Positions 1-43,686 of a DNA stretch of 64,000 nucleotides are shown here, piece by piece. Source of the stretch: Deltaproteobacteria bacterium (GTDB taxonomy: Bacteria; Myxococcota; XYA12-FULL-58-9); contig JACRCV010000015.1 of NCBI GenBank assembly GCA_016218825.1, positions 62,001 to 126,000 of the forward strand. The letters run 5' to 3'. Positions within the stretch are counted from its first letter, which is position 1; each line of letters opens with the position of its first letter. The notes beneath the pieces were generated by a model, which saw only the letters and a list, made by a program, of their open reading frames with translations, was not told the DNA's origin and made no database searches. Position numbers and translations under genes: made by a program.

Positions 1-261
1 GGCATCGGCATCGCGGCGCGGCACCTGAAGGAGGTCTTCAAGCGCTTCTTCAGGGTCGACCGCGAGGAGGTGCACCAGCGCCACGGGACCGGCCTGGGGC
101 TGTTCGTGGCCTTCGGGCTCGCGCGCCGCCTCGGCGGCCGCATCAAGGCGGAGTCGGCTGGCCCGGGGATGGGCACGGTGATGCGGGTGACGCTGCCGGT
201 CGCGAGCCGGCCCCGGGCGCCGAAGGCTGCGGCCAAGGGCGGCGAGGCGGAGGCCAAATGA
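1..261 (+). CDS. Sensor histidine kinase, C-terminal fragment (cut by window edge)
   Basis: The frame is open from base 1, so the 5' part lies outside the window. The roughly 86 residues visible are the end of a HATPase_c domain: a GIGI G1-like motif at the very start, an F-box (VFKRFFRVD), then the G2 box GTGLGL, and a basic Ala-rich tail. These elements bind ATP in histidine kinases. The stop codon overlaps the start of the response regulator gene (ATGA), so the pair is translationally coupled and very probably a cognate two-component system. The sensor domain and phospho-accepting His are not in view, so the stimulus cannot be inferred. Confidence 0.9.
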   Translation, partial: GIGIAARHLKEVFKRFFRVDREEVHQRHGTGLGLFVAFGLARRLGGRIKAESAGPGMGTVMRVTLPVASRPRAPKAAAKGGEAEAK

Positions 262-983
262 CCGCGCCCAAGGTGCTGGTGGTCGAGGACGAGGCGCATC
301 TCGCCGCCGGGCTGAAGCTCAACTTCGAGCTCGAGGGCTTCGAGGTGCTCGTCGCCGGCACGGTGCGCGACGCCAGCCGCCTGCTCCTGCAGCCCGGCGG
401 CTTCGCGGTGATCGTCTTGGACGTGATGCTGCCGGACGCGGATGGCGTGAGCTTCTGCCGCAAGATCCGCGAGGCCGGCGACTTCACGCCGGTCATCATG
501 CTGACGGTGAAGAGCTCGGCCGAAGACCGGGTGCTCGGCCTCGAGTCCGGCGCCGACGACTACGTCGGCAAGCCGTTCGAGTTCGGCGAGCTGTTGGCGC
601 GGGTGCAGTCGGTGCGCCGGCGGCAGCGCTGGGACCAGGACCATCAGGGCAACGGCGTCGCATCGCACCGCCTGGAGCTCGGCCACAGCGTCGTCGACTT
701 CGACACCCACGAGGTCTGGGTCGACGGCGAGCTGACGTCCTTGACGCGCCTCGAGATCGACTTGCTGCGCTACTTCGCCGCCAACCCCGCCCGGGTGATC
801 TCGCGCGCCGAGCTCTTGGAGCAGGTCTGGCGCTTCGAGAACGCCCCCGACAGCCGCTCGGTCGACAACTTCATCGGCCGGCTGCGCAAGCACTTCGAGG
901 ACGATCCGGCGAAGCCGGCGTACTTCGTCTCGGTGCGCGGCGTCGGCTATCAGTTCTTCCCGGATCCGGAGCGCCGGCGGTAG
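258..983 (+). CDS. OmpR/PhoB-family response regulator
   Basis: A 241-residue DNA-binding response regulator. The receiver domain (about 1-120) has the acidic pair E10/D11, phospho-acceptor D55, switch Thr83 and Lys105 in the conserved KPFE context. The rest is a winged-helix domain ending in the typical RGVGYxF motif just before the C-terminus. Length and architecture are standard for the OmpR/PhoB family. It starts inside the kinase gene (ATGA overlap) and is the last gene of its operon. Its target genes are unknown. Confidence 0.95.
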   Translation: MTAPKVLVVEDEAHLAAGLKLNFELEGFEVLVAGTVRDASRLLLQPGGFAVIVLDVMLPDADGVSFCRKIREAGDFTPVIMLTVKSSAEDRVLGLESGADDYVGKPFEFGELLARVQSVRRRQRWDQDHQGNGVASHRLELGHSVVDFDTHEVWVDGELTSLTRLEIDLLRYFAANPARVISRAELLEQVWRFENAPDSRSVDNFIGRLRKHFEDDPAKPAYFVSVRGVGYQFFPDPERRR

Positions 984-1001
984 AGCGCACTGCGTCTGCT
1001 C

Positions 1002-1078
1002 TTGATTCCCGCGCGGCCGCGGCGTCCGCGCTCCCCACCCCCACCCCTGAATCCCCGCCCCCGGGGTGGGGCGGGGAC
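1002..1078 (-). repeat. G-rich double-hairpin intergenic repeat, copy 1
   Basis: First of five copies of a dispersed element of about 75 bp. Read on the minus strand it has a C-run/G-run inverted repeat, then G-runs separated by single bases, then a second hairpin with GCGC ends, and the conserved tail GGGAATCAA. It lies directly 3' of the lipoprotein gene that ends at 1080, in the same sense as that gene, and is antisense to the response regulator converging from the other side. Other copies: 8002, 18806, 26131 (truncated) and 36597. Confidence 0.8.
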
Positions 1079-1079
1079 G

Positions 1080-2825
1080 TCAGTCCTTCCGGCAGGCCCG
1101 CAGCTGGATGTACGGCATCGTGACGTCGACGCTGGCGGCGCCGGCCGCGGCGCTCGTGAACGCTCCTACGTCCACGTCGTGGGCGTGGCCACCGTTGTCC
1201 GTGGAGTTGAACGCGGCGACGTCGACGCCGTGCGTATGGCCGGCGGCCGCAATCAGCGGGGTTTCGTTGAGGCTGCCGCTGCCGGAGCTCACATCGTGGG
1301 AGTCACCGGCCCACACTTGGCCGGGCGACAGGACGCTGGTGTTGGTGGGGGCGACGATGCTGCTGCCGCCTTGCTTGCGGATCTCGTGGTTGTGCCCGCC
1401 GCCGGAGACGGAGGTCGTGCTCGGCGGATCGACGCCGTGGTTGTGGGCACCGACGGCGGTGCTGGTGGTGTTCGGCGGATCGATGCCGTGGGTGTGCTGC
1501 GGCACCGCGGTGATCTCGCGCAGACCCTGATTGCCCACGCCCACGCCGACCATGCCTTCGACGCTGCCACCCGCCGGCAGGCCGACGACGGTGCGGCCGC
1601 GCGCCGCCTGGTACTCCGACCAACCGGGCGGACAGGCGCCGGCGAAGAAGCCGATCAAGCCGGGCGGGGTCTGGCGGCGGACCGTCATGCCGACGACGGA
1701 GCGGTCGATGGCCATGGTGGCGAGCGTCGCGACGCCGTTCGACGACGGGTTGCTGACGGCCTCGAGGCCGTTGCTGTCGCCGACGCTCTTCTTGCCCACG
1801 AGCACGTAGCCGTCGCCGGCGCCGAGCGCGTCGAAGGTCGACGAGGCGCCGAGCAGGTGCAGCGCGAGGACGAGCTGCCCGTCCGCCGCCAAGCCCTGGA
1901 TATTGCCGGCCGAGGCGAGGACGACGACGTAGTCGTTCGGGATGTTGCCGGGGTTTGCGGCCCACAGCAGCACGTCGCGGAGCTTCTGGGCCTCGGTGGT
2001 CGCGAACGGCCCCTTCGACCACATCCCCGAGCCGGCGCTCTGGTTGACGACCTGACGCGTGACGAGGTCGAGGATCACGAGATAGAGACCGGCGCTCGAG
2101 TTCTCACCGGCCCCCACCTGCTCGACGCCGTTGATCAGGACGCTGCGCTCTCCCGGGGTCGAGGCGCCGATCGCCGAGATCGTGGTGACGTCGCCGGCGA
2201 GGCCGCCGCGGAGCACCAAGGTCGGGTCGGCGGCGAGGGTGTTGTTGATGCTGGTGACGATCTGGGCGCCCGAGGCGTCGAGGCTGCCGGGCTCGCCTTG
2301 CAGCAAGCTCAGGTTGGCGTTGCAGGCGCCGGCCTGGTTGCTGAAGGTGAGGAGGTAGGAGCCTTTGACGATGTCGGTCGGCAGCGCCAGCTCCACCCGG
2401 GTGTCGGTGCCGGCGTTGCAGGCGACGAGGTTGGTGGCGGCGCGGGGCGGGTCGATGCCGGTGAGGGTGGCCTCGGCGCCGAGGAGGTGCTGGCCGGTGA
2501 CGACCAGGCGGTCCATCAAGTGGCGCTCGGTGTGGCCGCCGGTGACGTCGATCGAGCCGCTGCCGTTCGCGGTCTCGATGATCGGCGCCTCGCCGGTCGG
2601 CGTGCCGGGGACGCACGAGCCGTTGCGGCAGACGTTGCCGGGCTCGCAGTTCGAGTCGTAGATGCACACCGCCTGGCAGGTGCCGGAGATGCAGAGGACG
2701 CCGCTGTTGCAGTCGGAGTCTTTGACGCAAGCGCTGCCCTGGCCGCCGTTGCCGGTGGTGACGCTGCCGTTGCAGCTCCAGGTGCAGGACAACAGAAGCG
2801 CCAGTGCCAGGTTGCCACGGCTCAT
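1080..2825 (-). CDS. Modular surface lipoprotein with TIG-like, ILEI-like and tail-collar/HxH modules
   Basis: A 581-residue predicted lipoprotein. The start at 2825 is chosen because AAGGAG lies 8 bases upstream and a signal peptide with an LLSC lipobox (Cys14) follows; the frame is open further upstream, but without a signal sequence. In order: two Cys-rich motifs (30-72), a TIG/IPT-like region (80-180) ending in a short collagen-like LLQGEPGS linker, a segment resembling the ILEI/PANDER fold (246-350), a phage tail-collar-like motif (PGLIGFFAGACPPGW, from 388), and a His-rich tip with five HxH motifs (about 444, 461, 478, 530, 547). It shares its N-terminal scaffold with the proteins at 28787 and 57675. 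Inference: a surface-displayed adhesin or fibre-like protein. The module names come from motif recognition only. Confidence 0.75.
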   Translation of the reverse strand: MSRGNLALALLLSCTWSCNGSVTTGNGGQGSACVKDSDCNSGVLCISGTCQAVCIYDSNCEPGNVCRNGSCVPGTPTGEAPIIETANGSGSIDVTGGHTERHLMDRLVVTGQHLLGAEATLTGIDPPRAATNLVACNAGTDTRVELALPTDIVKGSYLLTFSNQAGACNANLSLLQGEPGSLDASGAQIVTSINNTLAADPTLVLRGGLAGDVTTISAIGASTPGERSVLINGVEQVGAGENSSAGLYLVILDLVTRQVVNQSAGSGMWSKGPFATTEAQKLRDVLLWAANPGNIPNDYVVVLASAGNIQGLAADGQLVLALHLLGASSTFDALGAGDGYVLVGKKSVGDSNGLEAVSNPSSNGVATLATMAIDRSVVGMTVRRQTPPGLIGFFAGACPPGWSEYQAARGRTVVGLPAGGSVEGMVGVGVGNQGLREITAVPQHTHGIDPPNTTSTAVGAHNHGVDPPSTTSVSGGGHNHEIRKQGGSSIVAPTNTSVLSPGQVWAGDSHDVSSGSGSLNETPLIAAAGHTHGVDVAAFNSTDNGGHAHDVDVGAFTSAAAGAASVDVTMPYIQLRACRKD

Positions 2826-2949
2826 GTGCACATCTCCTTGGTCGGGGGCCCCGGCGCCAAGGTTAGCCGGATATTCGGCGGAGTTCGAGAGGAAATCGGC
2901 GTCGAACGGGCGCGGGCGCTCTGCGGCCGGCAGGTCGGGGACGACTTGG

Positions 2950-6346: not shown

Positions 6347-7978
6347 ATGACCAATCGCAAGCGCACGGACCTGACGGTGTTCACTCTGGCGGTGCTCGGG
6401 AGCCTGGTCGCCCTGAACATCATCGGCATCAAGCTCTTCGGCCGCCTGGATCTCACCCACGACCGCGAGTTCACGCTGTCTAGAGCCACGAAGTCGGTGC
6501 TGCGGGACCTGAAGGACCCGGTCACGGTCCGCGCCTACTTCACCAAGGATCTGCCGCCGCCGTTCTCGTCCAACGCCCGCTACGTGCGAGATCTGCTCGA
6601 GGAGTACTACTCGGCCGGACACGGCAACTTCCGCTACGAGTTCATCAACCCCGAGGCCGAGGAGACCGACGCCGACAAGGAGAAGAAGAAGGAGGTCAAG
6701 ACCGACATCTTCGGGCGCGCGGTGCGCGAGGCGACCAGCATCGAGCGCGAGCTGCAGACCGTCGGCATCCAGCCGATGCAGGTGCAGGTGAACGAGGGCG
6801 ACAAGCTCGAGGTCAAGCGCGCCTACATGGGCCTCGCCATCAAGCACGGCGACAAGACCGAGGCGATCCCGGTGGTCCGCTCCACCGCCGGCCTCGAGTA
6901 CGACCTGACGACGATGGTCCGCAAGATGACCCGCGAGCGCACCCCGAAGGTGGTGCTGCTGTCGTCGCTCGAAGGGGCTGAGATGCAGCAGGCCTACGGC
7001 CGCATGCTCGCGGTGTTGAACGAGATGTACCAGGTGAGCCCGCTGCCGCTGCAGACGACCTCCGAGATTCCGACCGACGCCGACGCCCTGGTGGTGTTGG
7101 GGGTGCGGGACCCGGTCTTGGAGCCGTTGAAGAAGTCGATCGACGCCTTCATCACCTCGGGGCGCTCGGTGGCGTTCCTGCTCGACGCCGCCAAGGTCGA
7201 TCTGCAGACGGCGCAGGCGGAGCCGATCGAGCACGGCCTCGCCGAGATGTTGACGAGCTACGGGGTCACGATCGGCGAGGGCCTGGTGCTCGACGCCGCG
7301 TGCGCGACCCTGAACGTCACCCAGCAGCGCGGCTTCATGCGCATCAGCCAACCGGTGAAGTACCCGTTCATGCCGCTCCCCGAGAGCCTGGATCCGGATC
7401 ACCCGCTGACCCGCGGTCTCTCCCAGGTGGCGTTCCCGTTCACCTCGCCGCTCACGGTCGGCGCGCCGGCGGACGGCGCGGTGAAGGCGGAGGTGCTGGT
7501 GCGCTCGTCGGCCGAGAGCTTCGTGCACAAGGCGCCCTACAACCTCGATCCGTTCCAGCGCTGGACCTCCGAGGGCTTGAGCGACAAGGGCGCGAAGCCC
7601 ATGGTCGTGACCCTCACCGGGCCGATCAAGAGCTTCTTCGGCGGTGGCAGCCAACCGGAGGCCGGCGAGTCGAAGGAGCCCGAGGGCGCGAACGCCCGGG
7701 TGTTGGTCGCCGGCGGCTCGATGTTCGTCTCCGACCAGTTCATGGCCAAGGGCAGCGAGGCGCTGCTCTTGAACCTCTTGGACTGGATGGTGCTCGACGA
7801 GGAGCTGCTCGCGGTGCGCTCGCGCGGCCTGGCGGCGGCGCCGCTCGACGAGCTCTCGGACGCCAAGCGCAACACCCTGAAGTACGCCAACATCGTCGGG
7901 GTGCCGCTGGCCTTCATCGCCTTCGGGTTGATGCGCTGGCGGATGCGCGAGAATCGGCGCAGCAAGGTGACGCTCTAG
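6347..7978 (+). CDS. GldG-like extracytoplasmic ABC-complex protein
   Basis: A 543-residue protein with one N-terminal membrane span (about 10-32), a large extracytoplasmic domain and a C-terminal membrane span (about 510-530) followed by a basic tail. Early motifs (DLTHDREFTLSRATKSVLRDL, then VTVRAYFT) match the GldG/ABC-type uncharacterised family, a beta-strand-rich module paired with GldF-type permeases. It begins 10 bases after the permease, with GAGGAGGG upstream. It probably acts as the periplasmic partner of the transporter. The G-rich repeat lies just after its stop and before the DUF4340 gene. Confidence 0.85.
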   Translation: MTNRKRTDLTVFTLAVLGSLVALNIIGIKLFGRLDLTHDREFTLSRATKSVLRDLKDPVTVRAYFTKDLPPPFSSNARYVRDLLEEYYSAGHGNFRYEFINPEAEETDADKEKKKEVKTDIFGRAVREATSIERELQTVGIQPMQVQVNEGDKLEVKRAYMGLAIKHGDKTEAIPVVRSTAGLEYDLTTMVRKMTRERTPKVVLLSSLEGAEMQQAYGRMLAVLNEMYQVSPLPLQTTSEIPTDADALVVLGVRDPVLEPLKKSIDAFITSGRSVAFLLDAAKVDLQTAQAEPIEHGLAEMLTSYGVTIGEGLVLDAACATLNVTQQRGFMRISQPVKYPFMPLPESLDPDHPLTRGLSQVAFPFTSPLTVGAPADGAVKAEVLVRSSAESFVHKAPYNLDPFQRWTSEGLSDKGAKPMVVTLTGPIKSFFGGGSQPEAGESKEPEGANARVLVAGGSMFVSDQFMAKGSEALLLNLLDWMVLDEELLAVRSRGLAAAPLDELSDAKRNTLKYANIVGVPLAFIAFGLMRWRMRENRRSKVTL

Positions 7979-8001
7979 CGCCGTTCGCACGCGGCGTCGG
8001 A

Positions 8002-8085
8002 TCTTCGCCCCCGCCCCACCCGGGGGCGGGGGACGGGGGGTGGGGGTGGGGAGCGCCGCGGCTGCCGCGGCGCGGGAATCAAAAA
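8002..8085 (+). repeat. G-rich double-hairpin intergenic repeat, copy 2
   Basis: A complete copy: a near-perfect C/G inverted repeat, then runs of six, five and four G separated by single T, then a second hairpin with ten-base arms (GCGCCGCGGC and its complement), then GGGAATCAAAA. It lies 24 bases after the GldG-like stop, in the same sense as that gene, and about 50 bases before the DUF4340 gene, so it may attenuate transcription within the operon. Confidence 0.85.
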
Positions 8086-8134
8086 GTCGAGGCGGAGGCG
8101 GTTTGGGACCGCGCTAGGCACAAGGAGGATCGTC

Positions 8135-9650: not shown

Positions 9651-9777
9651 CTCGGATCTCCTGCCAAACGGCTTTCTTGTTCGGGCGGTTACGGCCTTGC
9701 CCGCAAAAGGTGCCAGGCACTTCTCACTCGGATCTCCTGCCAAACGGCTTTCTTGTTCGGGCGGTTACGGCCTTGCC
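9651..9777 (+). repeat. Duplicated 51-bp unit with palindromic spacer
   Basis: Two identical 51-base copies (9651-9701 and 9727-9777) beginning CTCGGATCTCCTGCC and ending GGCCTTGCC. The spacer of 25 bases contains the palindromic core GTGCCAGGCAC. The gap from 9644 to 9960 holds nothing else that I recognise; short ORFs on the minus strand here encode the repeat itself and are rejected. Confidence 0.85.
9700..9727 (+). repeat. REP-like palindromic repeat (GTGCCAGGCAC), copy 1
   Basis: A 28-base sequence that recurs at 10936-10963 with one mismatch. It is centred on GTGCCAGGCAC and followed by TTCTCAC. Such short dispersed palindromes resemble REP elements. No associated transposase is visible in the window. 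Confidence 0.7.
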
Positions 9778-10920: not shown

Positions 10921-11394
10921 ATGACCAAGGTAACCCCCGCAAGAGGTGCCAGGCACTTCTCACCGCACTTCTCACGGGCACTTCGCACAAGGGTGTCTTG
11001 GGTCGTGCCTGCCCTCGTCGGCGTGGCGTCCTGTTTCAAGCCCGACATCGAGATCCCGAGCGAGCAGCCGCTCGGCAAAGGCGCCACCAAGCTCGCGTTC
11101 GTCGTCGAGCCGGCGTCGGTCAAGGCCGGGGTGGTGGTGAGCCCGGCGGTGACGGTGGCGGTCCAGAACGCCGACGGCGCGGTGGTCGAGGACGCGCAGA
11201 ATCGGGTGCTGTTGGCCCTGGGCGCCGGCTCGCCGGGCCTCGTCCTCAACGGGACGGTGTCGGTCACGCCGCAAAGCGGCGTCGCGACCTTCGCCGATCT
11301 GGTGCTGCCGACCGCCGGCAACGGCTATTCCCTGGTCGCCACCTCGCCTGATCTCGTCAGCGCCACCTCCAGTCGATTCAGCGTCACGCCCTGA
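10921..11394 (+). CDS. Lipoprotein with one bacterial Ig-like domain
   Basis: If the ATG is used, a 157-residue product; the mature part (about 53-157) is one Ig-like domain of the type TKLAFVVEP, AVTVAVQNADG, GVATFADL, YSLVATSP. The first 25 codons read through the palindromic repeat at 10936-10963. A GTG at 10993 would instead start directly before a normal signal peptide with the lipobox GVASC. The authentic start may therefore be 10993, with the upstream codons repeat-derived. Probably a small envelope or surface lipoprotein following the DUF4177-like pair. Confidence 0.7.
   Translation: MTKVTPARGARHFSPHFSRALRTRVSWVVPALVGVASCFKPDIEIPSEQPLGKGATKLAFVVEPASVKAGVVVSPAVTVAVQNADGAVVEDAQNRVLLALGAGSPGLVLNGTVSVTPQSGVATFADLVLPTAGNGYSLVATSPDLVSATSSRFSVTP
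10936..10963 (+). repeat. REP-like palindromic repeat (GTGCCAGGCAC), copy 2
   Basis: Second copy of the 28-base sequence at 9700-9727, with one mismatch. Variants of the CACTTCTCAC and CACTTCGCAC ends continue to about 10987. It lies in the possible coding start of the Ig-like lipoprotein gene. Confidence 0.7.
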
Positions 11395-17170: not shown

Positions 17171-18784
17171 ATGTTGGCATTTTGTCTTTCCTTCGGGCTG
17201 ACCGCGGTCGTGGCCGGCGTGGACGTCGCGGACATTCAAGCGCAGATCCAGGCGCAGGGCCTCTCGTGGCAGGCCGGAAAGACCTGGGTGACCGAGCTGC
17301 CGGATGAAGAGCGGGCGCGGCTGATGCTGCCGCCCGGCGAGCATCCGCTGTCGCGCCAGGTGCGGACACGGGTCGAGCTCGGCGCCGAGGCCTCGCGACC
17401 GGTCGGCCGGCCGGCGATGTTGGCAACGCTGCCGCTCGCCCTCGACTGGCGGGCGCTCGCTCCCGACGGCTACAACTGGCTGCCGCCGGTGCGCAACCAG
17501 GGGAGCTGCGGCTCATGCTGGGACTTCGCGACCGTCGGCGCGGTCGAAGGGCTCTGGGGCTATCGCCGCGCGACCCCCGACCCGGTCATCGACCTCTCGG
17601 AGCAGCAGCTCCTGGACTGCGCCCAGACCACCTTCGGATGCGACTCCGGCGGCATCACCTGGGACATCAACATCCCGATCCTCGGCTACCGGATCACCGG
17701 CCCGGGCTCGTACATGAAGGGCACCGGCCTCACCTCGGAGAGCTGCTATCCGTACACCTCGGGCGGGACCGGCACCCGAGGCACCTGCACCGATCCGGCG
17801 ACGCTCTCCCCCGCCTGCCAGGCGGCGATCCTCAAGTCCGGGGACGAGACGCCGCTCAGCTCGACGCTTCCGACCGACGGCTTTCCGTGGGATCCGACGT
17901 CGTTCACCCTGACGCCGGACGAGATGGACGAGATCAAGGCCTACCTGCAGGAGCGGCCGGTGGGCGTGTCGATGCGCGCCTACAGTGACCTCTCCGCGTA
18001 TCACTCGGGGGTCTACGAGCCCACCGCCAACCCCGGCGGCTACGGGCTGCACGCGGTCGTGCTCGTCGGCTACAACGACGCCGAGGGCGCTTGGATCGTG
18101 CGCAACTCGTGGGGCGCTTCGTGGGGCGAGAACGGCTACTTCCGGATCAAGTACAACACCTCGCTCATCGGCATGTACGCGTTCGTCTACGGCCTGGATG
18201 AAGAGCGCAAAGACCCGGCGTTTTGCCCTTCGCTGCCGGTCGAGGTGCGGGTGAACGCGACCAACACCGCCCAGAAGAGCAACCTGACGATCGCCAACTG
18301 CGGCAGCGGCGTTTTGCACTGGCAGGCGAGCGTCGGCTCTTGGATCGCCTTCGAGACCGACGCCGGCGTTGCGGTCACGAGCGGCGCCGAGCTCGCTGCC
18401 GGCACGACGTACAAGGTCCGCGCCAAGCAGGCGGTGGCGGTGGGGACCGCGGGGAGCATCACCCTCACCGGGGCACCGAACGGGCCGGTGACGATCGCGA
18501 TCACGACCGCCGACGCGCCGGCGCCCGATGGCGGGCCCCGCACAGACGGCGGCCCGCGCCACGACGGTGGCAGCCTCGGGGACGACGACCAGGTGCTGGC
18601 CGGCGATCCGCGGGCTCCCGGTGACGGGCAGCTACGTGGCGACGGCGCCGATCTCGTGGATGACGGCGGCGATCCGGGGGGCTGCGCTTGTCGGGGGGGC
18701 GGCGGCGCGACGGTGCTCGCGCTGCTCGGCCCCCTCTGGCTCGTGCTGCGGCGCTCGCGACGGCCGGTCCGACCGAGCGGCTAG
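17171..18784 (+). CDS. Secreted papain-family (C1A) cysteine protease with MYXO-CTERM-like tail
   Basis: A 537-residue secreted protease. The ATG at 17171 (GGGG 6 bases upstream) gives a signal peptide; a TTG two codons earlier is also possible. The peptidase domain has oxyanion Gln110, catalytic Cys116 in QGSCGSCWDF, His294 in GLHAVVLVGY and Asn312 in VRNSWGASWG, so it looks active. A beta-rich region (about 350-450) and an Asp/Gly-rich linker follow. The end is GGCACRGGGG, one membrane span and an Arg-rich tip, as in MYXO-CTERM sorting signals, which implies export and surface processing. It appears monocistronic, with a G-rich repeat after its stop. Confidence 0.92.
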   Translation: MLAFCLSFGLTAVVAGVDVADIQAQIQAQGLSWQAGKTWVTELPDEERARLMLPPGEHPLSRQVRTRVELGAEASRPVGRPAMLATLPLALDWRALAPDGYNWLPPVRNQGSCGSCWDFATVGAVEGLWGYRRATPDPVIDLSEQQLLDCAQTTFGCDSGGITWDINIPILGYRITGPGSYMKGTGLTSESCYPYTSGGTGTRGTCTDPATLSPACQAAILKSGDETPLSSTLPTDGFPWDPTSFTLTPDEMDEIKAYLQERPVGVSMRAYSDLSAYHSGVYEPTANPGGYGLHAVVLVGYNDAEGAWIVRNSWGASWGENGYFRIKYNTSLIGMYAFVYGLDEERKDPAFCPSLPVEVRVNATNTAQKSNLTIANCGSGVLHWQASVGSWIAFETDAGVAVTSGAELAAGTTYKVRAKQAVAVGTAGSITLTGAPNGPVTIAITTADAPAPDGGPRTDGGPRHDGGSLGDDDQVLAGDPRAPGDGQLRGDGADLVDDGGDPGGCACRGGGGATVLALLGPLWLVLRRSRRPVRPSG

Positions 18785-18805
18785 AACGCATTCTGGGGAC
18801 TGCGG

Positions 18806-18884
18806 TCTTCGCCCCCGCCCACCCGGGGCGGGGGACGGGGGGTGGGGTGGGGAGCGCGGGCGCATCGTCCGCGCGGGAATCAAA
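18806..18884 (+). repeat. G-rich double-hairpin intergenic repeat, copy 3
   Basis: A complete copy, 22 bases after the protease stop and in the same sense. The first hairpin is shortened on both sides by one base, which keeps it symmetric. The second hairpin has different arms from copies 2 and 4 (GCGCGG outer pairs) but the same GGGAATCAAA tail. Confidence 0.85.
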
Positions 18885-18964
18885 GGCAGGAGAGAGGCCG
18901 AGCGGCGCCGATCGGGGGTCATACGGAAAGCGGAGCGAAGTCGAGTGGGTGCGCAAATGCGCCT

Positions 18965-20740: not shown

Positions 20741-21868
20741 ATGCCGGAGAAGCTGAGCCTCACAGTTCTGCGACAGCTGGCCCCCAAGCAGGTCGTTGCT
20801 GAGGTCGAGGCCGAGCTCGCGAAGGTGTCGGTCGCCAAGCCGGACGCCGATCCGAGCGTCGGGTTGGATCTGGTCACCAAGGTCGTCGCCCGTCTGCATC
20901 CGAGCTCGCAGGAGATGGCGGCGCTGCTCGGGAAGATCGGCGGCCTCGGTGGCGCGGACGGTGCCGATCAGGGCACCGTCGTCGTGGCCGTAGACTTGTC
21001 GCCGGCCGAGTCGTTCTTCGTGAAGACCAGCGACGCGCCGGCCGACCTCCAAGCCGTGAACGCGAAGCTCGCGGAGCTGCTGGCCGATCCGCTGCCGGCG
21101 CCGAGTCCCGCCCCCGAGCCGGTGGCCGCACTGCCGGAGCTGCAGCCGGAGGCAAAGGCGCAGCCGAAACCGGAGCCGCAACCGGAGGCAAAGGCGCAGC
21201 CCAAGCCGCAGCCGAAGGCACAGCCCAAGCCGCAGCCGAAGGCACAGCCCAAGCCGCAGCCGAAGGCGCAGCCCAAGCCGCAGCCGAAGGCACAGCCCAA
21301 GCCGCAGCCGAAGGCGCAGCCCAAGCCGCAGCCGAAGGCACAGCCCAAGCCGCAGCCGAAGGCACAGCCCAAGCCGCAGCCGAAGGCACAGCCCAAGCCG
21401 CAGCCGGCGCGACGGGCGGTGGTTCAGCCGGCAGCGAAGCCGATGCCGGTCCTGGCATCGCAGCCTTACGCCGTGCTGAAACAGAAGTTCTGGCAGAGCA
21501 TGGAGGCGGCGTACGTCGGCGAGGTGGCGCGGCAGCACGGCAGCTTCCAGGCGGCGGAGGCGGCGCGCCTGTGGCACAACCAGGCGGCGGCGAGTCATCT
21601 GCGCGACGTGTATGCCAATCGTGGCCGCTTGCAGGTGCTCAACGTGCCGCAGCTGTTGCGCGCCGTGGGGCTCGACAACTCGGTGTGGCGGCTGCATTAC
21701 AATCCGTTCAAGCAGACGGTGCTCGATCGCTTCGAGCGCGCCTACATCGCCGAGCTATTGGACGAGTGCCGCGGCAACGTCGACCGGGCGGCGGCGGCCG
21801 CGCGCATGTCTTCGAGTGAAATCTGGGCGCTGGTTCGCCAGCACAACCTTCGGGATAAAGTTCGCTAA
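20741..21868 (+). CDS. Lys/Pro/Gln-repeat linker protein with C-terminal Fis-type HTH (gene 2)
   Basis: A 375-residue cytoplasmic protein. The N-terminal part (1-125) is helical and of unknown family. Residues about 130-225 are low complexity, including nine exact 8-residue units (KAQPKPQP). The C-terminus has a Fis/NtrC-type helix-turn-helix (FERAYIAELLDECRGNVDRA then ARMSSSEIWALVRQHNL). A related-looking segment lies before it (SMEAAYVGEVARQHGSFQAA), so two tandem HTH units are possible. It begins 9 bases after gene 1 with GAGGAG upstream. Inference: DNA-binding regulator of the operon, or an adaptor linking the AAA+ proteins to a target. Confidence 0.8.
   Translation: MPEKLSLTVLRQLAPKQVVAEVEAELAKVSVAKPDADPSVGLDLVTKVVARLHPSSQEMAALLGKIGGLGGADGADQGTVVVAVDLSPAESFFVKTSDAPADLQAVNAKLAELLADPLPAPSPAPEPVAALPELQPEAKAQPKPEPQPEAKAQPKPQPKAQPKPQPKAQPKPQPKAQPKPQPKAQPKPQPKAQPKPQPKAQPKPQPKAQPKPQPKAQPKPQPARRAVVQPAAKPMPVLASQPYAVLKQKFWQSMEAAYVGEVARQHGSFQAAEAARLWHNQAAASHLRDVYANRGRLQVLNVPQLLRAVGLDNSVWRLHYNPFKQTVLDRFERAYIAELLDECRGNVDRAAAAARMSSSEIWALVRQHNLRDKVR
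21191..21406 (+). repeat. Nine tandem copies of a 24-bp unit inside gene 2
   Basis: Nine contiguous 24-base units (AAGGCNCAGCCCAAGCCG then CAGCCG) in which only one wobble base varies (G or A). They encode KAQPKPQP. Such near-identical copies imply recent expansion and probable length variation among strains. Confidence 0.95.
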
Positions 21869-24228: not shown

Positions 24229-25836
24229 ATGCCAATCAAGGTCAGCTCGCAGACCAAGGCCGACAAGGTCAACCTCGCCGACTATGCCATCCCGGCGGGG
24301 GAGGCCGCCTGGCTGAAGAAGAAGCTCGGGGCGACGTTCTCGTTCGACGAGCTCGACCACCTGGCGATGGCGCAGAACCTGACGGCGGACGAGAAGAAGA
24401 TCGTCGAGGGCATGCGGCGCTCGGTGCTCGGCAACACCCGCGCCGACCAGGGGGTGGTGGCGAGCAAGGACGGCGACGCGCCGCTGTCGACCGTGGTCGC
24501 GATGACGCTCGAGAAGGCCCGGCTGCCGACCGGGGAGCTCGCCGAGCAGCAGAAGCTGCGCGCCGACATGCTGCCGGCGCTCGTCGGCCACGAATCCGAG
24601 CTCGAGAGCTTCGTGCAGATGTTGAAGGACTTCCGCTCGCCGGCGCGGCGCTTCCCGCCGCTGATGGCGCTCGTCGGCGATCCGGCGCACGGCAAGGACC
24701 AGGCGATCACCGGCTACGCGCGCTCGGTGTTCTCTTTGCAGGCCACGGTGCACACGGTGAACCTGAAGGGCGGCGATCCCTTCGCGCCGGGCGGGCCGCT
24801 GTCGCTGCCGGTGCTGCAGGCGCTCGAGAAGTCGGGCGGCGTGGTGCGCGTCCAGGGGGCAGAGGGGCTGCGGGCGAGCGCGCCGGCGGTCGCGGCCAAG
24901 CTCGGCGAGCTCTTGACCGCGGTGAAGGGTGACCCGAACTACGTACGTCTGAACTACATCTTCGACTTCGACGCGGCGCCGGGCACCAACGGCCGGCAGC
25001 TGATGGTCGAGGCCCTCGACTGGGTGGGGAACGCCAACCTCTCGGCGCTCGCGAGCTTCAAGCACCTGGACGGGCCGAGCATGGTCGAGTACGCCAAGCG
25101 CGTGCTCCCGGATCTGCTCGCCGGCGACACCTTGGGCAAGCTCAAGGTCGAGTTCGACGACCAGGCGCTGGCACTCTTGGGCGAGGCGTTGGCGACGCCG
25201 CACAAGCCGCTCGCGGAGCTCGAGGCGCGGCTGCTGCGCTTCGTCATGTCGAAGTTCGACACCCAGACCTCGGTGGACCGCGCCGGCGGCGTGCTGCGGG
25301 TGAGCGTCGAGCCCAAGTTCGCGCTCGACAATGTGGTCCGCAACGAGCGGCTCGCCGCTCTGCACCAGCCGCTCCCCGATCTCTTCAGCGGCGCCGAGCT
25401 CTTCATCATCTACGAGGTGGCGAAGCAGAAGGCGCCGACCGCGGAGCGCGACCTGTTGTTGAAGCACGCCGGGGTGGTGGTCGATCGGCTTTCCAAGCTC
25501 GACGTCGAGCTCACGGCGGTGGCCGGGGACAAGGGGCCGGAGGCCGGTGTCGGGGCGCTCGCCGAGGCGCTGGTCACGCTGCGGCAGGCGATCACGACTG
25601 CGCTCAAGTACGCGACGCAGAGCCACCGGCTGAACCTCGAGCGGCTGGTCCCTGACCGGGAGCTGCAGCCGCTGCAGAGGAGTCTCGCGGCGGCCGAGGC
25701 GGCGTTTGCCGGGGTGGACGCGAAGAAGCTCGGCGCGCGCAACCAACGGTGGGTGAAGGCGCAGGCCGAGGCGAAGGCGTTGATTGATGCCGCGAGGCTG
25801 TTTGCGGCGGGGCTCAGCGCTGATCTGAAGAGCTAG
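24229..25836 (+). CDS. Degenerate ClpB-like AAA+ protein, probable pseudo-ATPase (gene 4)
   Basis: A 535-residue protein paired with gene 3. After a helical N-terminus an AAA+ region begins near 105, in the order LVGHESELESF, then FPPLMALVGDPAHGKD. Its Walker A is GDPAHGKD (150-157) with Asp in place of Ser/Thr. The Walker-B-like strand GVVRVQGAEG has Gln-Gly where Asp-Glu is expected. The pore region GDPFAPGGP lacks the aromatic residue, and sensor-1 reads FDFD. The C-terminus is helical. It is therefore probably an inactive AAA+ subunit that structures or regulates the active gene 3 ring. It starts 9 bases after gene 3. The homology is by pattern and needs a structural comparison. Confidence 0.75.
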   Translation: MPIKVSSQTKADKVNLADYAIPAGEAAWLKKKLGATFSFDELDHLAMAQNLTADEKKIVEGMRRSVLGNTRADQGVVASKDGDAPLSTVVAMTLEKARLPTGELAEQQKLRADMLPALVGHESELESFVQMLKDFRSPARRFPPLMALVGDPAHGKDQAITGYARSVFSLQATVHTVNLKGGDPFAPGGPLSLPVLQALEKSGGVVRVQGAEGLRASAPAVAAKLGELLTAVKGDPNYVRLNYIFDFDAAPGTNGRQLMVEALDWVGNANLSALASFKHLDGPSMVEYAKRVLPDLLAGDTLGKLKVEFDDQALALLGEALATPHKPLAELEARLLRFVMSKFDTQTSVDRAGGVLRVSVEPKFALDNVVRNERLAALHQPLPDLFSGAELFIIYEVAKQKAPTAERDLLLKHAGVVVDRLSKLDVELTAVAGDKGPEAGVGALAEALVTLRQAITTALKYATQSHRLNLERLVPDRELQPLQRSLAAAEAAFAGVDAKKLGARNQRWVKAQAEAKALIDAARLFAAGLSADLKS

Positions 25837-26130
25837 AGCGGTTTCGCCGTAGGCTGATCGTTTTGCGCCCTTGCTTGCGTTCCTCGCGCTCGCGGCTTCG
25901 CCTCCGCTGCAGCACCGGCGGGCGCGACAGTAGGGTCGAGTCAAAACGAGAAGGCTGTAGAGCGCTCTCGGGGTGACACCGTCTTCTCCCCCGACCGCCA
26001 ACCTGGCGGGGGGACCGCCCGCCGGCCCGCGGCCCGAGGACGAGCCTGCAGGTGGAGGGCCGGCTCTGCGTCCCCCCGTGCCCCCGCACCTCGCCCTGGC
26101 AAAGCCAGCTGCTCGGTGCCCGATCGAGTG
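25837..26130. other. Intergenic region without a recognised gene
   Basis: About 290 bases between the AAA+/kelch operon and the truncated G-rich repeat. Both strands were read; only short Arg/Pro-rich shadow frames are present, with no coding signal, RNA gene or convincing terminator. Confidence 0.6.
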
Positions 26131-26184
26131 GGCCGGGGGGTGGGGGTGGGGAGCGCCGCGGCAGCCGCGGCGCGGGAATCAAAA
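26131..26184 (+). repeat. G-rich double-hairpin intergenic repeat, copy 4 (5' truncated)
   Basis: Only the G-run core, the second hairpin (arms GCGCCGCGGC and complement, one-base difference from copy 2) and the GGGAATCAAAA tail are recognisable. The first hairpin has diverged or been lost. It lies nearly 300 bases after gene 4 of the AAA+/kelch operon, in the same sense. Confidence 0.75.
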
Positions 26185-26215
26185 CCGTTAGAAGCGGGCC
26201 CTAATCTATCTGTCG

Positions 26216-34243: not shown

Positions 34244-35622
34244 GGCCCGCGGCCGAGATCTTCCGCGAGTACGACATCCGCGGCGTCGTCGGCCGTACCC
34301 TCGATCGGGAGGTCGCGTTCGCGATCGGCCGCGCGGTCGGCACCATGATACGGCAGGGCGGCGGCCACCGGGTCGTCTTCAGTCGCGATTGCCGCCTCTC
34401 CGGGCCGGAGCTCGCCGAGGGCGCCGTCGCCGGCCTGGTCGCGACCGGCTGCACCGTGCAGGACGGCGGCGTCACGCCGACCCCGGTCAACTACTGGGGC
34501 ATCGTCAACCGCGGCGCCGACGCCGGCGTGGTGCTGACCGGCAGCCACAACCCCCCCGACTACAACGGCTTCAAGCTCACCCTCTTCGGGCACACCCTGC
34601 ACGGAGACGAGATCCAGAAGGTGCGGGCGCTGATCGAGGCCGAGGACTACGCGCAAGGCGACGGCAAGAGCGAAGCGGTGTCGCTGTTGCCGGCATACAT
34701 CGACGATCTGGCGGCGAAGCTCCGGCAAAGCCCGCGACCGCTGAAGCTCGTGATCGACGCCGGCAACGGCACCGGCGGGATGACGGCGGTGCCGCTGTAT
34801 CGACGCCTGGGTTACGAGGTGGTGCCGCTCTACTGCGAGCCGGACGGCCACTTCCCGCATCACCACCCCGATCCCACCGTCGCGGACAACCTGGCGGCGC
34901 TGTGCCGCAAGGTGTCCGAGACTGACGCCGAGCTCGGGATCGCGTTCGACGGCGACGCCGATCGCATCGGCGTCGTCGACCGGAGCGGCGAGATCGTGTG
35001 GGGTGACCGACTCCTGGTGCTGCTCGCGCGCACCGTGCTCAGGGCGGTGCCGGGCGCCGCGATCATCGGCGAGGTGAAGTGCTCGAAGACCCTGTACGAC
35101 GACATCGCGAAGCACGGCGGCCGGCCGATCATGTGGCGCGCCGGCCACTCGCTCATCAAGGCCAAGATGAAAGAGGAGGGCGCGGCGCTCGCCGGCGAGA
35201 TGAGCGGCCACATCTTCTTCGCGCACCGCTACTACGGCTTCGACGACGCGGTCTACGCCGGCGGTCGACTGCTCGAGATCCTGGCGGCGGGCGACAAGAC
35301 GGTGTGCGAGCACCTCGCGGACCTGCCGCGGCTGGTGTCGACCCCGGAGCTACGGCGCGATTGCGCCGAGGACCTGAAGGCGCCGCTCGTCGCCGCGGTG
35401 CGCGAGCGCTTCAAGAGGGCGGGCGCCGCCGAGGCGTTCCGGGTGGTCGACATCGACGGCGTGCGGGTGGAGTGGCAAGACGGCTGGGGGCTGTTGCGCT
35501 GCAGCAACACCCAACCGATCCTGGTGCTGCGCTTCGAGGCAGAGAACGAGGCGCGCCTGCGCGGCATCGAAGCGCGCTTTGACGAGGAGATCGAAGCCGC
35601 GCGGCAGACCCTGGGGCAATGA
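34240..35622 (+). CDS. manB: Phosphomannomutase/phosphoglucomutase
   Basis: A 460-residue alpha-D-phosphohexomutase. The opening IFREYDIRGVVG, active-site serine loop TGSHNPPDYNGFK, metal loop FDGDADRIG, sugar-binding loop GEMSGHIFF and phosphate-binding C-terminal region (LRCSNTQPILVLRFEAE) are all present. It interconverts hexose 6- and 1-phosphates, supplying mannose-1-phosphate for ManC. The family is often dual-specific (AlgC-type). It overlaps both neighbours by four bases. Confidence 0.95.
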   Translation: MRPAAEIFREYDIRGVVGRTLDREVAFAIGRAVGTMIRQGGGHRVVFSRDCRLSGPELAEGAVAGLVATGCTVQDGGVTPTPVNYWGIVNRGADAGVVLTGSHNPPDYNGFKLTLFGHTLHGDEIQKVRALIEAEDYAQGDGKSEAVSLLPAYIDDLAAKLRQSPRPLKLVIDAGNGTGGMTAVPLYRRLGYEVVPLYCEPDGHFPHHHPDPTVADNLAALCRKVSETDAELGIAFDGDADRIGVVDRSGEIVWGDRLLVLLARTVLRAVPGAAIIGEVKCSKTLYDDIAKHGGRPIMWRAGHSLIKAKMKEEGAALAGEMSGHIFFAHRYYGFDDAVYAGGRLLEILAAGDKTVCEHLADLPRLVSTPELRRDCAEDLKAPLVAAVRERFKRAGAAEAFRVVDIDGVRVEWQDGWGLLRCSNTQPILVLRFEAENEARLRGIEARFDEEIEAARQTLGQ

Positions 35623-36707
35623 TGACCGCGGCGATCGGCATCGACATCGGCGGCTCGAGCCTGCGGGCGGCCATCGTGGAGCACGACGGCAGGATCGTGC
35701 GCGCCAAGAGCCGGCGGCTCGGCGAGCGCTCGCCGGAAGCCCTCTTGAACCAGCTCGAAGATCTCTTGCAGAGCCTCGGCGGTGCGGGCGACGCGGCGAT
35801 GGCCGTCGGCCTGGCGGCGGTCATTCGACTGCAGACCGGGGTCGTGACGGTGGCGCCGAATCTGGGTTGGCACCAGGTGCCGTTCGCCGAGATGCTGGCG
35901 CGGCGCTTCGGGCGGCCGGTGCGCCTGGTGAACGACCTCGACGCCATCACCGTCGGCGAGGCGGCGTGCGGCGCCGGCAAGGGCGCCACCGACGTCGTCT
36001 GCGTGTTCGTCGGCACCGGGGTCGGCATGGGCGCGGTCGTCGATGGCCGGGTCCTCGAGGGCTGCGGCGGCACCGCGACCGAGCTCGGCCACATCAAGGT
36101 CGAGTCGACGATCGACGGGCGCCTCTGCGGCTGCGGCGAGCGCGGCTGCCTCGAGACCTACGCCTCCGGGAGGCACCTGCCGGAGCTCGTGCGCGCGAAG
36201 GTCGAGCGCGGCCGCCAGACCCGACTGGTGGCGGACGTGGAGGGGCACGGCGACTGGAAAGCGCTGACGGCCGAGCGCATCGAGGCCGCCGCCAAAGACG
36301 GCGACGAGGTCGCCCGGGAGGTTTGGCGGGACGCCGCCGGTTACCTCGGGCGAGCGATCGGCAACCTGGTGACGATCTTCAACCCGCGAGTGCTGGTGCT
36401 CGGCGGCGGCGTGCTCGAGGCCGCGCCCAGCCTGCGGCGTGCGGTGGTGGCGGGCATCAACGCCGACGCGGCTCGGCCGCAGCTCGCCGACGTGTCGATC
36501 CGGGACTCGGAGCTCGGGGATCAGGCCGGCCTGGTCGGCGCCGGGCTGCTCGCGCACCAGGCGGCGCTGGCCCGCGTTGGTGATGAAGGGCGCGTGGCCC
36601 CCCGCCCACCCGGGGCGGGGGTGACGGGGGGTGGGGTGGGGAGCGCGGCCGCCGCGGCCGCGCGGGAATCAGATGAAGACGAAAGCGGTCCGACTACTCC
36701 CAGGTGA
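35619..36707 (+). CDS. ROK-family sugar kinase with a repeat-derived C-terminus
   Basis: A 362-residue kinase. The ATP loop is IGIDIGGSSLRAAIV; the catalytic/sugar region is VVCVFVGTGVGMGAVVDGRVLEGCGG; and the zinc motif is ELGHIKVE followed by CGCGERGCLETYASG. ROK kinases phosphorylate glucose or related hexoses, here feeding the mutase. The normal end is near AALARVGDEG (about residue 325). From about residue 327 the frame reads through a G-rich repeat copy (36597-36671), giving a Gly/Ala-rich tail, and overlaps the convergent glgP stop by 14 bases. Start overlaps manB (ATGA). Confidence 0.92.
   Translation: MMTAAIGIDIGGSSLRAAIVEHDGRIVRAKSRRLGERSPEALLNQLEDLLQSLGGAGDAAMAVGLAAVIRLQTGVVTVAPNLGWHQVPFAEMLARRFGRPVRLVNDLDAITVGEAACGAGKGATDVVCVFVGTGVGMGAVVDGRVLEGCGGTATELGHIKVESTIDGRLCGCGERGCLETYASGRHLPELVRAKVERGRQTRLVADVEGHGDWKALTAERIEAAAKDGDEVAREVWRDAAGYLGRAIGNLVTIFNPRVLVLGGGVLEAAPSLRRAVVAGINADAARPQLADVSIRDSELGDQAGLVGAGLLAHQAALARVGDEGRVAPRPPGAGVTGGGVGSAAAAAARESDEDESGPTTPR
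36597..36671 (+). repeat. G-rich double-hairpin intergenic repeat, copy 5 (inside the ROK gene end)
   Basis: A complete copy in the same sense as the ROK gene, starting about 110 bases before its stop. The first hairpin is CCGCCCACCCGGGGCGGG; the G core follows; the second hairpin has arms GCGCGGCCG and CGGCCGCGC, again different in sequence but still pairing; the tail is GGGAATCA. Confidence 0.85.
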
Positions 36708-39249
36708 CCAGCCCGAGGGCCAAAGGCTCGAGCAGATCCGGGTGGTAGGGCAGGATCCGCAACGTGAACGCTCGCCGGCCGCTCTTCTTGCACGGGACCT
36801 TGCCCTCGTAGAGGTGGGTGTTGTCCTCGATCTGACGCACCCAGGTCATCGGCAGGCTGTCGCCCCGGGGGATCTTGAGCTCGGCGTCCATGTCGCCGTC
36901 GTAGATCTGGACCCGGACGTGATCGGGCTTCAGCTGCCCGAGGCGGATCTTGGCGTGCACCGCGAAGGTCGAGCCGACCTTCACGTCGCTCTGGGTCTCG
37001 GTCTCGGCGCTGAGCACCTTGACCTCCCGCCAGTGGCGATGGAACAGCGCCTTGCAGTCGGAGAGCGAGCGCGCCCGAGCCGCGCCGTCGGCGGTGAACT
37101 CGCGGTAGCGCTGATCGGAGGGCAAATAGAAGCGCTCGGTGTACTCCTGCACCATGCGGTTGGTGTTGAAGACCGGGCCGAGCTCGCGGATCGAGGTCTT
37201 CATCATCCGGATCCACTGGCGCGGTAGTCCGTCGCGACCCCGGTCGTAGAAGGTCGGGATCACCGCCTGCTCCAGGAGATCGTAGAGGGCCTCGGACTCG
37301 ACCTTGTCCTGGTACTCCTGATCGGTGTACTCCTCGCCGCGGCCGATCGCCCAGCCGGTGTCGTGGCTGCAGCCCTCCGCCCACCAGCCGTCGAGAATCG
37401 AGACGTTCAAGCCACCGTTGAAGATCACCTTCATCCCCGAGGTCCCCGAGGCCTCGAGCGGCCGGCGCGGCGTGTTGAGCCAGACGTCGACGCCCTGGAC
37501 CAGGTAGCGCGCCAGCGCCATGTCGTACTGCTCGAGGAACACCACGCGGCGGCGCAGATCCTCGTCACGGGCGGTGTGGACGATGCGGCGGATCAGCTCC
37601 TTGCCGGCGTCGTCGTGCGGGTGGGCCTTGCCGGCGAACAGGAACTGCACCGGCCGGTCGGTGTCGCGCAGGATCTGCTTCAGACGTTCGAGGTCCCTGA
37701 GCAGCAGGGTCGCGCGCTTGTAGGTCGCGAAGCGGCGCGCGAAGCCGATGGTGAGCGCCGAGGGGTTCAAGACCTCCTCCGCCATCGCCGCCATCGAGGT
37801 CGTGGCGCCGCGGCGCAGCAGCTGCTCGCGCAAGCGATCCCGGGCCATCGACACCAGGCGCTCGCGGCGGCGCTCGTGGGCCCGCCAGAGCTCCTCGTCG
37901 GGGATTTGATCGACGCGGTTCCAAACGGTTTGATCGGCGGGATCCTTGACCCAGCGCTCTCCGAGGTAGCGATTGAAGAGGTCGGTCATCTCGCGGCTGA
38001 TCCAGGTGCGGGTGTGAACGCCGTTGGTGATCGAAGTGACCGGGATCTCGTGCGCCGGCACCTGCGGCATGCTGGTGTGCACCATGTCGCGCGACACCTG
38101 GCCGTGGAGCTTGCTGACGCCGTTGACGAAGGTGGAGTTGCGGATCGCCAGCGCCGCCATGTTGAAGAACTCGTCGGTGTTCGCCGGATTGGTGCGGCCG
38201 ATCTTGAACAGCGACTCGAGGCTGATCCCGAGGCCTTTGACGTACTCCCCGAAGTAGGTCGTCATCAGATCTTTCGGGAACAGGTCGAAGCCGGCGGGCA
38301 CCGCGGTGTGGGTGGTGAAGACGTTGCCGGCGATGCACGCCTCGCGCGCCGCGGTGAAGTCGAGCTTGTGCTCCTCCATCGTCTGGCGGATGCGCTCCAG
38401 GCACTGGAAGGCGCTGTGGCCCTCGTTCATGTGGCAGACCGTGGGTTTGAGGCCGAGCGCCTTGAGGGCCCGCAGGCCGCCGATGCCGAGCATGATCTCC
38501 TGGCGGATGCGCAGGTCGCGGTCGCCGCCGTAGAGCTGGTCGGTGATGTCTTGGTCGTCGGCGTGGTTCGCGGAGATGTTGGTGTCGAGGAGGTAGAGGG
38601 GCACCCGGCCGACCTGGACCCGCCAGATCTGCGCCGCGACCGTGCGCTGCGGGTACTGCACCGTGATCACCAGCGGCGCGCCGTCCGCGCCGCGCTCGAG
38701 GAGCATCGGCATGTTGTAGAAGTCGTTCTGCGGGTAGCTCTGCTGCTGCCAGCCGTCGGCGTTCAGGTACTGCTGGAAGTACCCCTGCTGGTAGATGAGG
38801 CCGACGCCGACCAGCGGCAACCCGAGCTCGGAGGCCGACTTCAGGTGGTCGCCGGAGAGGACGCCGAGGCCGCCGGAGTAGATCGGCAAGCACTCGGTGA
38901 GGCCGAACTCCGCCGAGAAGTAGGCGACGCAGGCGCGGGGCTTGCCGGCGCGGGCGCGGTCATACCAGGACGGCTGCTCCAAGACCTCGAGGTGTTGGCG
39001 ATACACCCGGTCGAGGTAGGCGACGTAGCTCTCGTCGCGCGCCAGCTGGTCCAGGCGCTCCTGACCGACGTTGCCGAGCAACAACACCGGGTTGTGCCGG
39101 CTCGTCTTCCACAGGTCGCGGTCGATGCGGCGAAAGGCGTCGATGATGTCCAGGTCCCAGGCCCAATGGAGGTTGTACGCCAGGGCGCGCAACGGCGACA
39201 GCGGCTCGGGCAGCGTGGGGACGACGTGGTACTCGTGCAGGACGGACAT
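36694..39249 (-). CDS. glgP: Alpha-glucan (glycogen/maltodextrin) phosphorylase, GlgP type with DUF3417
   Basis: An 851-residue enzyme. The start at 39249 follows AAGGAG and gives the DUF3417 opening LSPLRALAYNLHWAWDLDI. Further motifs: CVAYFSAEFGLTECLPIYSGGLGVLSGDHLKSASELG (active-site region), then FVFT-like and EASGTSGMKVIFNGGLNVSILDGWW, the pyridoxal-phosphate Lys region. It phosphorolyses alpha-1,4-glucans to glucose-1-phosphate. It converges with the ROK gene, overlapping by 14 bases. It fits a glycogen/trehalose storage economy with GH15 and otsAB elsewhere in the window. Confidence 0.95.
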   Translation of the reverse strand: MSVLHEYHVVPTLPEPLSPLRALAYNLHWAWDLDIIDAFRRIDRDLWKTSRHNPVLLLGNVGQERLDQLARDESYVAYLDRVYRQHLEVLEQPSWYDRARAGKPRACVAYFSAEFGLTECLPIYSGGLGVLSGDHLKSASELGLPLVGVGLIYQQGYFQQYLNADGWQQQSYPQNDFYNMPMLLERGADGAPLVITVQYPQRTVAAQIWRVQVGRVPLYLLDTNISANHADDQDITDQLYGGDRDLRIRQEIMLGIGGLRALKALGLKPTVCHMNEGHSAFQCLERIRQTMEEHKLDFTAAREACIAGNVFTTHTAVPAGFDLFPKDLMTTYFGEYVKGLGISLESLFKIGRTNPANTDEFFNMAALAIRNSTFVNGVSKLHGQVSRDMVHTSMPQVPAHEIPVTSITNGVHTRTWISREMTDLFNRYLGERWVKDPADQTVWNRVDQIPDEELWRAHERRRERLVSMARDRLREQLLRRGATTSMAAMAEEVLNPSALTIGFARRFATYKRATLLLRDLERLKQILRDTDRPVQFLFAGKAHPHDDAGKELIRRIVHTARDEDLRRRVVFLEQYDMALARYLVQGVDVWLNTPRRPLEASGTSGMKVIFNGGLNVSILDGWWAEGCSHDTGWAIGRGEEYTDQEYQDKVESEALYDLLEQAVIPTFYDRGRDGLPRQWIRMMKTSIRELGPVFNTNRMVQEYTERFYLPSDQRYREFTADGAARARSLSDCKALFHRHWREVKVLSAETETQSDVKVGSTFAVHAKIRLGQLKPDHVRVQIYDGDMDAELKIPRGDSLPMTWVRQIEDNTHLYEGKVPCKKSGRRAFTLRILPYHPDLLEPLALGLVTWE

Positions 39250-43255: not shown

Positions 43256-43297
43256 GGACTCCCCGAGCCACGGAGGAGCGAAGCCACCACGCACTCG

Positions 43298-43480
43298 AGG
43301 CCGGTCTCCTGACTCGCGGTACGAGGTCTTGACCTCGCGAGCTTGCGCTCGTCCGCCGCCCTCCCTTCCGACGCACGCGTCGTGGGTGCTGCCTCGGGCA
43401 ACGGTCAGCCGCTCACAGTGGCGGGCCCGTGCCGGACTCTCACCGGCTTCCCGTTTCATCCCCAACGAGGGACACCCCGG
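43298..43480 (-). ncRNA. Cobalamin (B12) riboswitch
   Basis: Read on the minus strand, this leader has the conserved AACGGGAAGCCGGTGA segment (43442-43456), the GCCACTGTGAGC core (43410-43424) and the 3' B12 box GAGTCAGGAGACCGGCCT (43298-43315), in the right order and spacing. It is 43 bases upstream of the BtuB-like start codon. Bound cobalamin in such leaders shuts down expression. A CTCC stretch after the B12 box could pair with the GGAG ribosome site, suggesting translational control (inference). Confidence 0.95.
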
Positions 43481-43686
43481 GTGCGGTCGATGTGCTCCAC
43501 ACACCGACCCCGCGCCTCTAGCAGACAGATCGCGAGCGACGCAAGGTCGGCGACGGCGCCCGCCGGCCCTGCGACGCCGGCAGGGCGAGCGAATTCTCGG
43601 GCTTTGCCGACGTTGCCCTGGCGACGCCACGCGTCAGGCTTGACCGCCGGTCGGTCGCCCATCAGACTCGGCGGCGCGAGGGGCCG

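Follow-up and report, generated by a model that had tools for sequence, protein, structure and literature searches.

A hairpin repeat that recurs throughout the genome of a myxococcotal bacterium is best read as a new family of REP/MITE-like repeats. We put at about three in four the probability that it is a non-autonomous mobile DNA element that is recognized by its structure and keeps its shape rather than its sequence. The repeat has been gained in one lineage at sites that are empty in a sister species, it prefers TAG stop codons, and both of its hairpins covary across copies.

Make-up of the repeat and its copies in the window

The window, the whole stretch of 64,000 nucleotides analyzed here (69% GC), belongs to a 6.54-Mb genome (G000), which we searched with the pattern GGGTGGGGAGCGC-N-GCGGGAATC and, as a control, with the same pattern reversed. 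The combination of GTGGGGAG, a hairpin (H2), and GGGAATC had 107 exact matches and 160 matches when three or fewer mismatches were allowed, and the reversed pattern occurred 0 times in the same genome; the repeat is far above chance. From 5′ to 3′, a copy consists of a first hairpin (H1), a G-run linker, H2, the flank GGGAATCA, and a tail of ∼20 nt, in total ∼100 to 140 bp. H1 is of the type CCCC-ACYCG-GGGG, with the loop ACYCG in the majority of copies, and a canonical four-run G-quadruplex motif is present in 77 of 120 copies and missing from the other 43. At the gathering score, no Rfam family matches the element in the window or at the loci of the lake genome described below, and we found neither a repeat family of this kind described in Myxococcota nor a CTAG- or stop-codon-associated repeat in the open literature.

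All five window copies with G-runs and GGGAATC that the preliminary description had listed were located, with GGGAATC at 1010 (minus strand), 8074, 18875, 26174, and 36664. Each had been credited with two hairpins; the G-runs, H2 (with a 9-bp stem), and GGGAATCA are indeed found in five of five, whereas H1 is found in four and is missing from the copy at 26131. The arms of H2 are, as had been observed, of differing types among these copies and still complementary. Copy 1 (984 to 1079, minus strand; H1 at 1077 to 1052, H2 at 1031 to 1011, GGGAATC at 1010 to 1004) has convergent genes on either side, at 258 to 983 (plus) and 1080 to 2831 (minus). Copy 2 is an inserted element of ∼135 bp (7979 to 8113, plus strand) between two CTAG tetranucleotides. 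It comprises H1, with the loop ACYCG and a variable stem, as seen from covariation and folds (8008 to 8032), the G-run linker GGGGGGTGGGGGTGGGG, near-invariant in the alignment (8035 to 8051), H2, a GC-rich palindrome of variable sequence identified by covariation (8053 to 8073), and GGGAATC, invariant in the pattern search and the alignment (8074 to 8080).

Copy 3 (18785 to 18900, plus strand; H1 at 18812 to 18834, H2 at 18854 to 18874, GGGAATC at 18875 to 18881) lies directly 3′ of the CTAG stop (18781 to 18784) of a papain-family gene (17171 to 18784). Copy 4, the one at 26131, is a composite (25837 to 26200, plus strand) in which a CTAG stop (25833 to 25836) is followed by parts of other repeats and then by the G-run, H2 (26153 to 26173), and GGGAATC (26174 to 26180), without a canonical H1. 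A GC-rich stretch at 25860 to 25930 (CTTGCGTTCCTCGCGCTCGCGGC...) is also found elsewhere in the genome, 3′ of a CTAG stop near C46:61400, and is apparently another stop-associated repeat. Copy 5, at 36597 (36599 to 36689, plus strand; H1 at 36599 to 36621, H2 at 36643 to 36663, GGGAATC at 36664 to 36670), overlaps the 3′ end of a ROK open reading frame (35619 to 36707) and stops 4 nt short of the stop of the convergent gene at 36694 to 39249 (minus). Two reading frames run into the element and gain a new C terminus, namely, this ROK frame and a branched-chain aminotransferase-like frame at G000:C26:23079-24254.

The window also holds a 51-nt sequence that recurs exactly 76 nt away, accompanied by GGTGCCAGGCACTTC palindromes (9651 to 9777 and 10936 to 10963), which is likely a different REP-type repeat, as well as a tandem array with a 12-nt period (21085 to 21466) within the gene at 20741 to 21868 and a cobalamin riboswitch (43282 to 43494, minus strand; 88 bits).

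Hairpin covariation and distribution

The preliminary description had proposed a check of covariation in a larger set of copies, and in an alignment of 42 copies covariation holds for both hairpins (11 pairs in H1 and 9 in H2). Paired cells make up 98.8% of H1 and H2 together, two-sided changes affect 8 of the 20 pairs and 80 cells, and one-sided changes, including G-C to G-U, affect 0 cells of this alignment. None of 500 shuffles equaled the observed covariation, and slid structures collapsed. Across all copies of the genome, G-U accounts for 9 of 1,072 pairs. Under selection for RNA pairing, G-C pairs would be able to change by way of G-U intermediates; as G-U is nearly absent here, we infer that pairing is maintained at the DNA level or by palindrome-correcting replication. 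Minimum free energy is not unusual for the base composition (z = −1.1) and was dropped as evidence.

A covariance model combined with the pattern recovered clear copies in just the two members of the genus among 195 Myxococcota genomes; the sister species, Myxococcota bacterium RA.bin128 (JAKLEG01; here G001), holds 7 copies, and one other genome (G020) gave a single weak model match (E = 0.007). The element is also present in a lake metagenome-assembled genome of uncertain phylum (CANNIZ01; G195), and none of 186 relatives of that genome has it. The 19 copies in the lake genome carry 18 different 5′ arms between constant GTGGGGAG and GGGAATCA, and 124 of 128 stem pairs are Watson-Crick; with arms swapped among copies, 70% of positions are paired, against 96% with their own. 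That the stems differ in nearly every copy there suggests long retention, unlike a purely selfish, decaying repeat, although the exact-motif search favors intact copies.

The stop codon of a convergent gene in the lake genome is often the TGA within TGATTCCC. One locus, L204:1501-2121, holds a complete, 621-nt noncoding form with the ends TGATTCCC/GGGAATCA, which matches no known RNA family and has imperfect inverted arms that are 75% alike; relatives of 300 to 600 nt occur elsewhere in the same genome. Maintenance of this ∼600-nt form as a palindrome was considered and rejected, the arms being only ∼75% alike and copies matching one another's arms better than their own. Candidate inverted doublets are this 621-nt form and, in G000, two copies that face each other head to head at a distance of 190 bp; most G000 copies are single. 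Two related 32-kb viral contigs from soil crust carry a similar element, CCCCCACTCGGGG...GTGGGGAGCGC...GCGCGGGAATC, immediately ahead of a terminase gene (L288:9520-9605 and L289:1377-1456; twice in L288).

Gene context, empty sites, and insertion sequences

We assessed gene context with a simple codon-model gene caller over ∼872 kb around copies and later over 1.92 Mb. The copies are extragenic and lie mainly at gene ends, as had been described; 126 of 132 fall outside the genes that were called. Among the 94 intergenic regions that hold a copy, 41 are convergent, 40 co-directional, and 13 divergent, compared with 71, 416, and 205 among other intergenic regions of ≥40 nt (n = 692). The statement that the repeat always stands 3′ of a gene in the same sense is true of all five window copies but not of the genome, where the upstream gene is in the same sense at 59 copies and in the opposite sense at 38. 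Within co-directional gene pairs, 16 copies are in sense and 25 in antisense orientation (P = 0.21). Given the convergent excess and this orientation count, gene ends are favored and the transcribed strand is not.

Comparison with the sister species exposes two empty sites and thus a lineage-specific gain. At the site orthologous to that of copy 2, the ABC_transp_aux orthologue ends in TAG and DUF4340 starts ∼10 nt on, against a gap of ∼156 nt in the window. At the second, C46:60950, 225 nt stand between matching gene parts where the sister species has 93 nt, and the extra sequence begins exactly after the orthologous CTAG stop. Of 104 flanking stops, 73 are TAG and 45 are CTAG; among 1,342 stops elsewhere, the counts are 468 (35%; P = 3 × 10−12) and 154 (11%; P = 1 × 10−14), respectively. 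The location at gene ends can be attributed to this choice of TAG and CTAG targets, since 101 of 250 CTAG sites in the first 872 kb are stop codons. On the 3′ side, CTAG stands 20 to 21 nt past GGGAAT in 19 of 103 copies, where 0.03 are expected per position. Copy 2 of the window and a few others have CTAG on both sides; in copy 2, the 5′ tetranucleotide (7975 to 7978) is the stop codon of the upstream gene (6347 to 7978), and the 3′ one (8114 to 8117) may be a 4-bp target duplication. Such a duplication is possible rather than proven because the majority of copies keep CTAG on one side.

The repeat is in turn a target. Many contigs end within H1, in ∼120 to 170 nt of common foreign sequence, and at least three insertion sequences are involved; across 1.92 Mb, every end of three types (∼29 junctions) abuts H1, in either half. 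The assembly breaks at H1 because the inserted sequences are themselves repeats. Ends seen in H1 include AATGGTGAGCC, AGAGTCAG, and CCACCTCATCC, for example, at the G000 contig ends L004:1-170, L057, and L088. The left and right junctions of one type, read from different copies, overlap by ∼9 bp (CCACYCGGG). The coding end of one insertion sequence, IS-A, weakly matches the C terminus of an IS4-family transposase (NF033590; E = 0.015). As a lead, the ends of another, IS-B (CTGACTCTTCTACACATC and CTGACTCTTGATCGCATC), are presumably similar to the outside end and the inside end of IS50.

Recognition, alternative readings, and meaning

The conserved ACYCG loop, GTGGGGAG, and GGGAATCA, next to stems that are free in sequence and well paired, suggest recognition of shape plus unpaired motifs. 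We propose that a trans-acting enzyme would recognize these features, likeliest as a DNA hairpin in single-stranded DNA. Insertion favors TAG stop codons, most of all those in CTAG, and leaves the stop in place, thus doing little harm. Such a trans-acting transposase would work through a single-stranded intermediate, and the exact cut sites are likewise putative. RAYT transposases recognize REPs in this way. No cognate transposase or partner insertion sequence was found in the genomes searched, and outward-facing element pairs in G000 enclose ordinary genes. None of five Y1 (RAYT-type) genes in the three genomes, whose assemblies are fragmented, has the element within ∼1.5 kb. A RAYT partnership with these genes was therefore rejected; three of the five genes have their own GGGTCAG-type inverted repeats (G000 C40, G000 C25, and G195 C68). 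Y1 (IS200/RAYT-like) transposase genes at L031, L032, and L211 are flanked by inverted repeats of their own, GGGGTCAG/CTGACCCC. The 20-nt tail, the least conserved part of an element whose internal motifs are invariant, is weakly inverted-repeat with the 5′ end. Terminal inverted repeats were at first convincing by eye and proved marginal (complementarity score, 5.9 versus 5.6 for swapped copies).

The reading favored by the preliminary description was selection for a structure at the 3′ end of transcripts, be it a terminator or an mRNA-stabilizing double hairpin, perhaps with an RNA G-quadruplex. Extragenic placement, the share of convergent regions (41 of 94 against 71 of 692 others), and very stable, covarying hairpins speak for it, and intrinsic terminators are likewise GC-rich hairpins 3′ of genes. 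It is nevertheless very unlikely. That description had itself taken random orientation to speak against a transcript structure, and the copies show no sense bias. Moreover, H2 is followed by GGGAATCAAA in place of a T-run, no terminator was called at copies 1 to 3, the fold energy is ordinary for the composition, and G-U pairs are scarce, with no one-sided G-U change. The repeat, unlike a terminator, arrived by insertion, as a genus-restricted gain at orthologous sites that are otherwise empty, and a transcript role would leave the excess of TAG and CTAG at flanking stops without a reason.

Among mobile elements, the closest comparison is with the REP, whose defining features are a 5′ GT(A/G)G tetranucleotide and then a palindrome that varies in composition (PMC3686654); GTGG-GGAGC-palindrome, which fits this definition, is conserved in G000, G001, and G195. 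REP/REPIN systems with RAYT, as in Pseudomonas, Stenotrophomonas, and E. coli, share with the element an extragenic location, on the order of 100 or more copies, this 5′ motif, and the role of hot spot for insertion sequences. If the element were a true REP/REPIN, it would be moved by a Y1, IS200/IS605-like RAYT enzyme that these genomes have lost or that is missing from their assemblies. In favor of this are the likeness of GTGG(G)GAGC and its palindrome to Pseudomonas REPs (GTrGGAGC...; PMC3686654), the landing of insertion sequences in a hairpin, as is known for REPs (PMC1525189), and the occurrence of Y1 genes in all three genomes. However, the element adjoins none of those genes and, at ∼135 to 620 nt, is several times the length of a REP, for which reasons we do not file it as one; it further differs in having at least two hairpins and G-runs, an invariant GGGAATCA 3′ flank, and a stop-codon target. 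We consider this reading unlikely. A classical MITE of a DDE transposon (IS5- or IS701-like, with YTAR target duplication), its internal hairpins being incidental, seems distinctly improbable. MITEs, too, are short and noncoding, occur at empty sites, and sometimes have CTAG on both sides, as do copy 2 and a few others, and in some copies the two ends match (for example, CTAGACCGTCTTC/GAAAACGGTCTAG). However, conservation in the element is internal rather than terminal, opposite to the pattern of a MITE; complementarity between the ends barely exceeds that of swapped copies, the stems covary, and no partner insertion sequence was found. With ends that are its least conserved part, the element is no typical MITE. 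The double-hairpin elements of mitochondrial DNA are GC-rich double hairpins as well, and there is evidence that they are mobile; they are organellar and shorter, and we know of no sequence motif that they share with the element.

Our preferred reading remains a structure-recognized, non-autonomous mobile DNA element. More tentatively, and with the odds against it, the repeat may represent a new class of non-autonomous mobile elements, recognized through the shape of their hairpins together with unpaired G-rich motifs. Members of this class would insert at TAG stops, would be mobilized by an enzyme other than a RAYT or a terminal-repeat-binding DDE transposase, and would occur in unrelated places, namely, one Myxococcota genus, the lake genome, and possibly soil-crust phage, as separate lineages. 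Stems whose sequence is free to vary while pairing is kept would separate shape from sequence in recognition, and the copies supply naturally occurring compensatory variants that can be used in tests. Stop-codon targeting would be a strategy for harmless landing, and H1, on which several insertion sequences land exclusively, is one more instance of a trait of REPs. Finally, covarying hairpins 3′ of genes are not necessarily RNA structures, since an insertion bias alone suffices to place them there.
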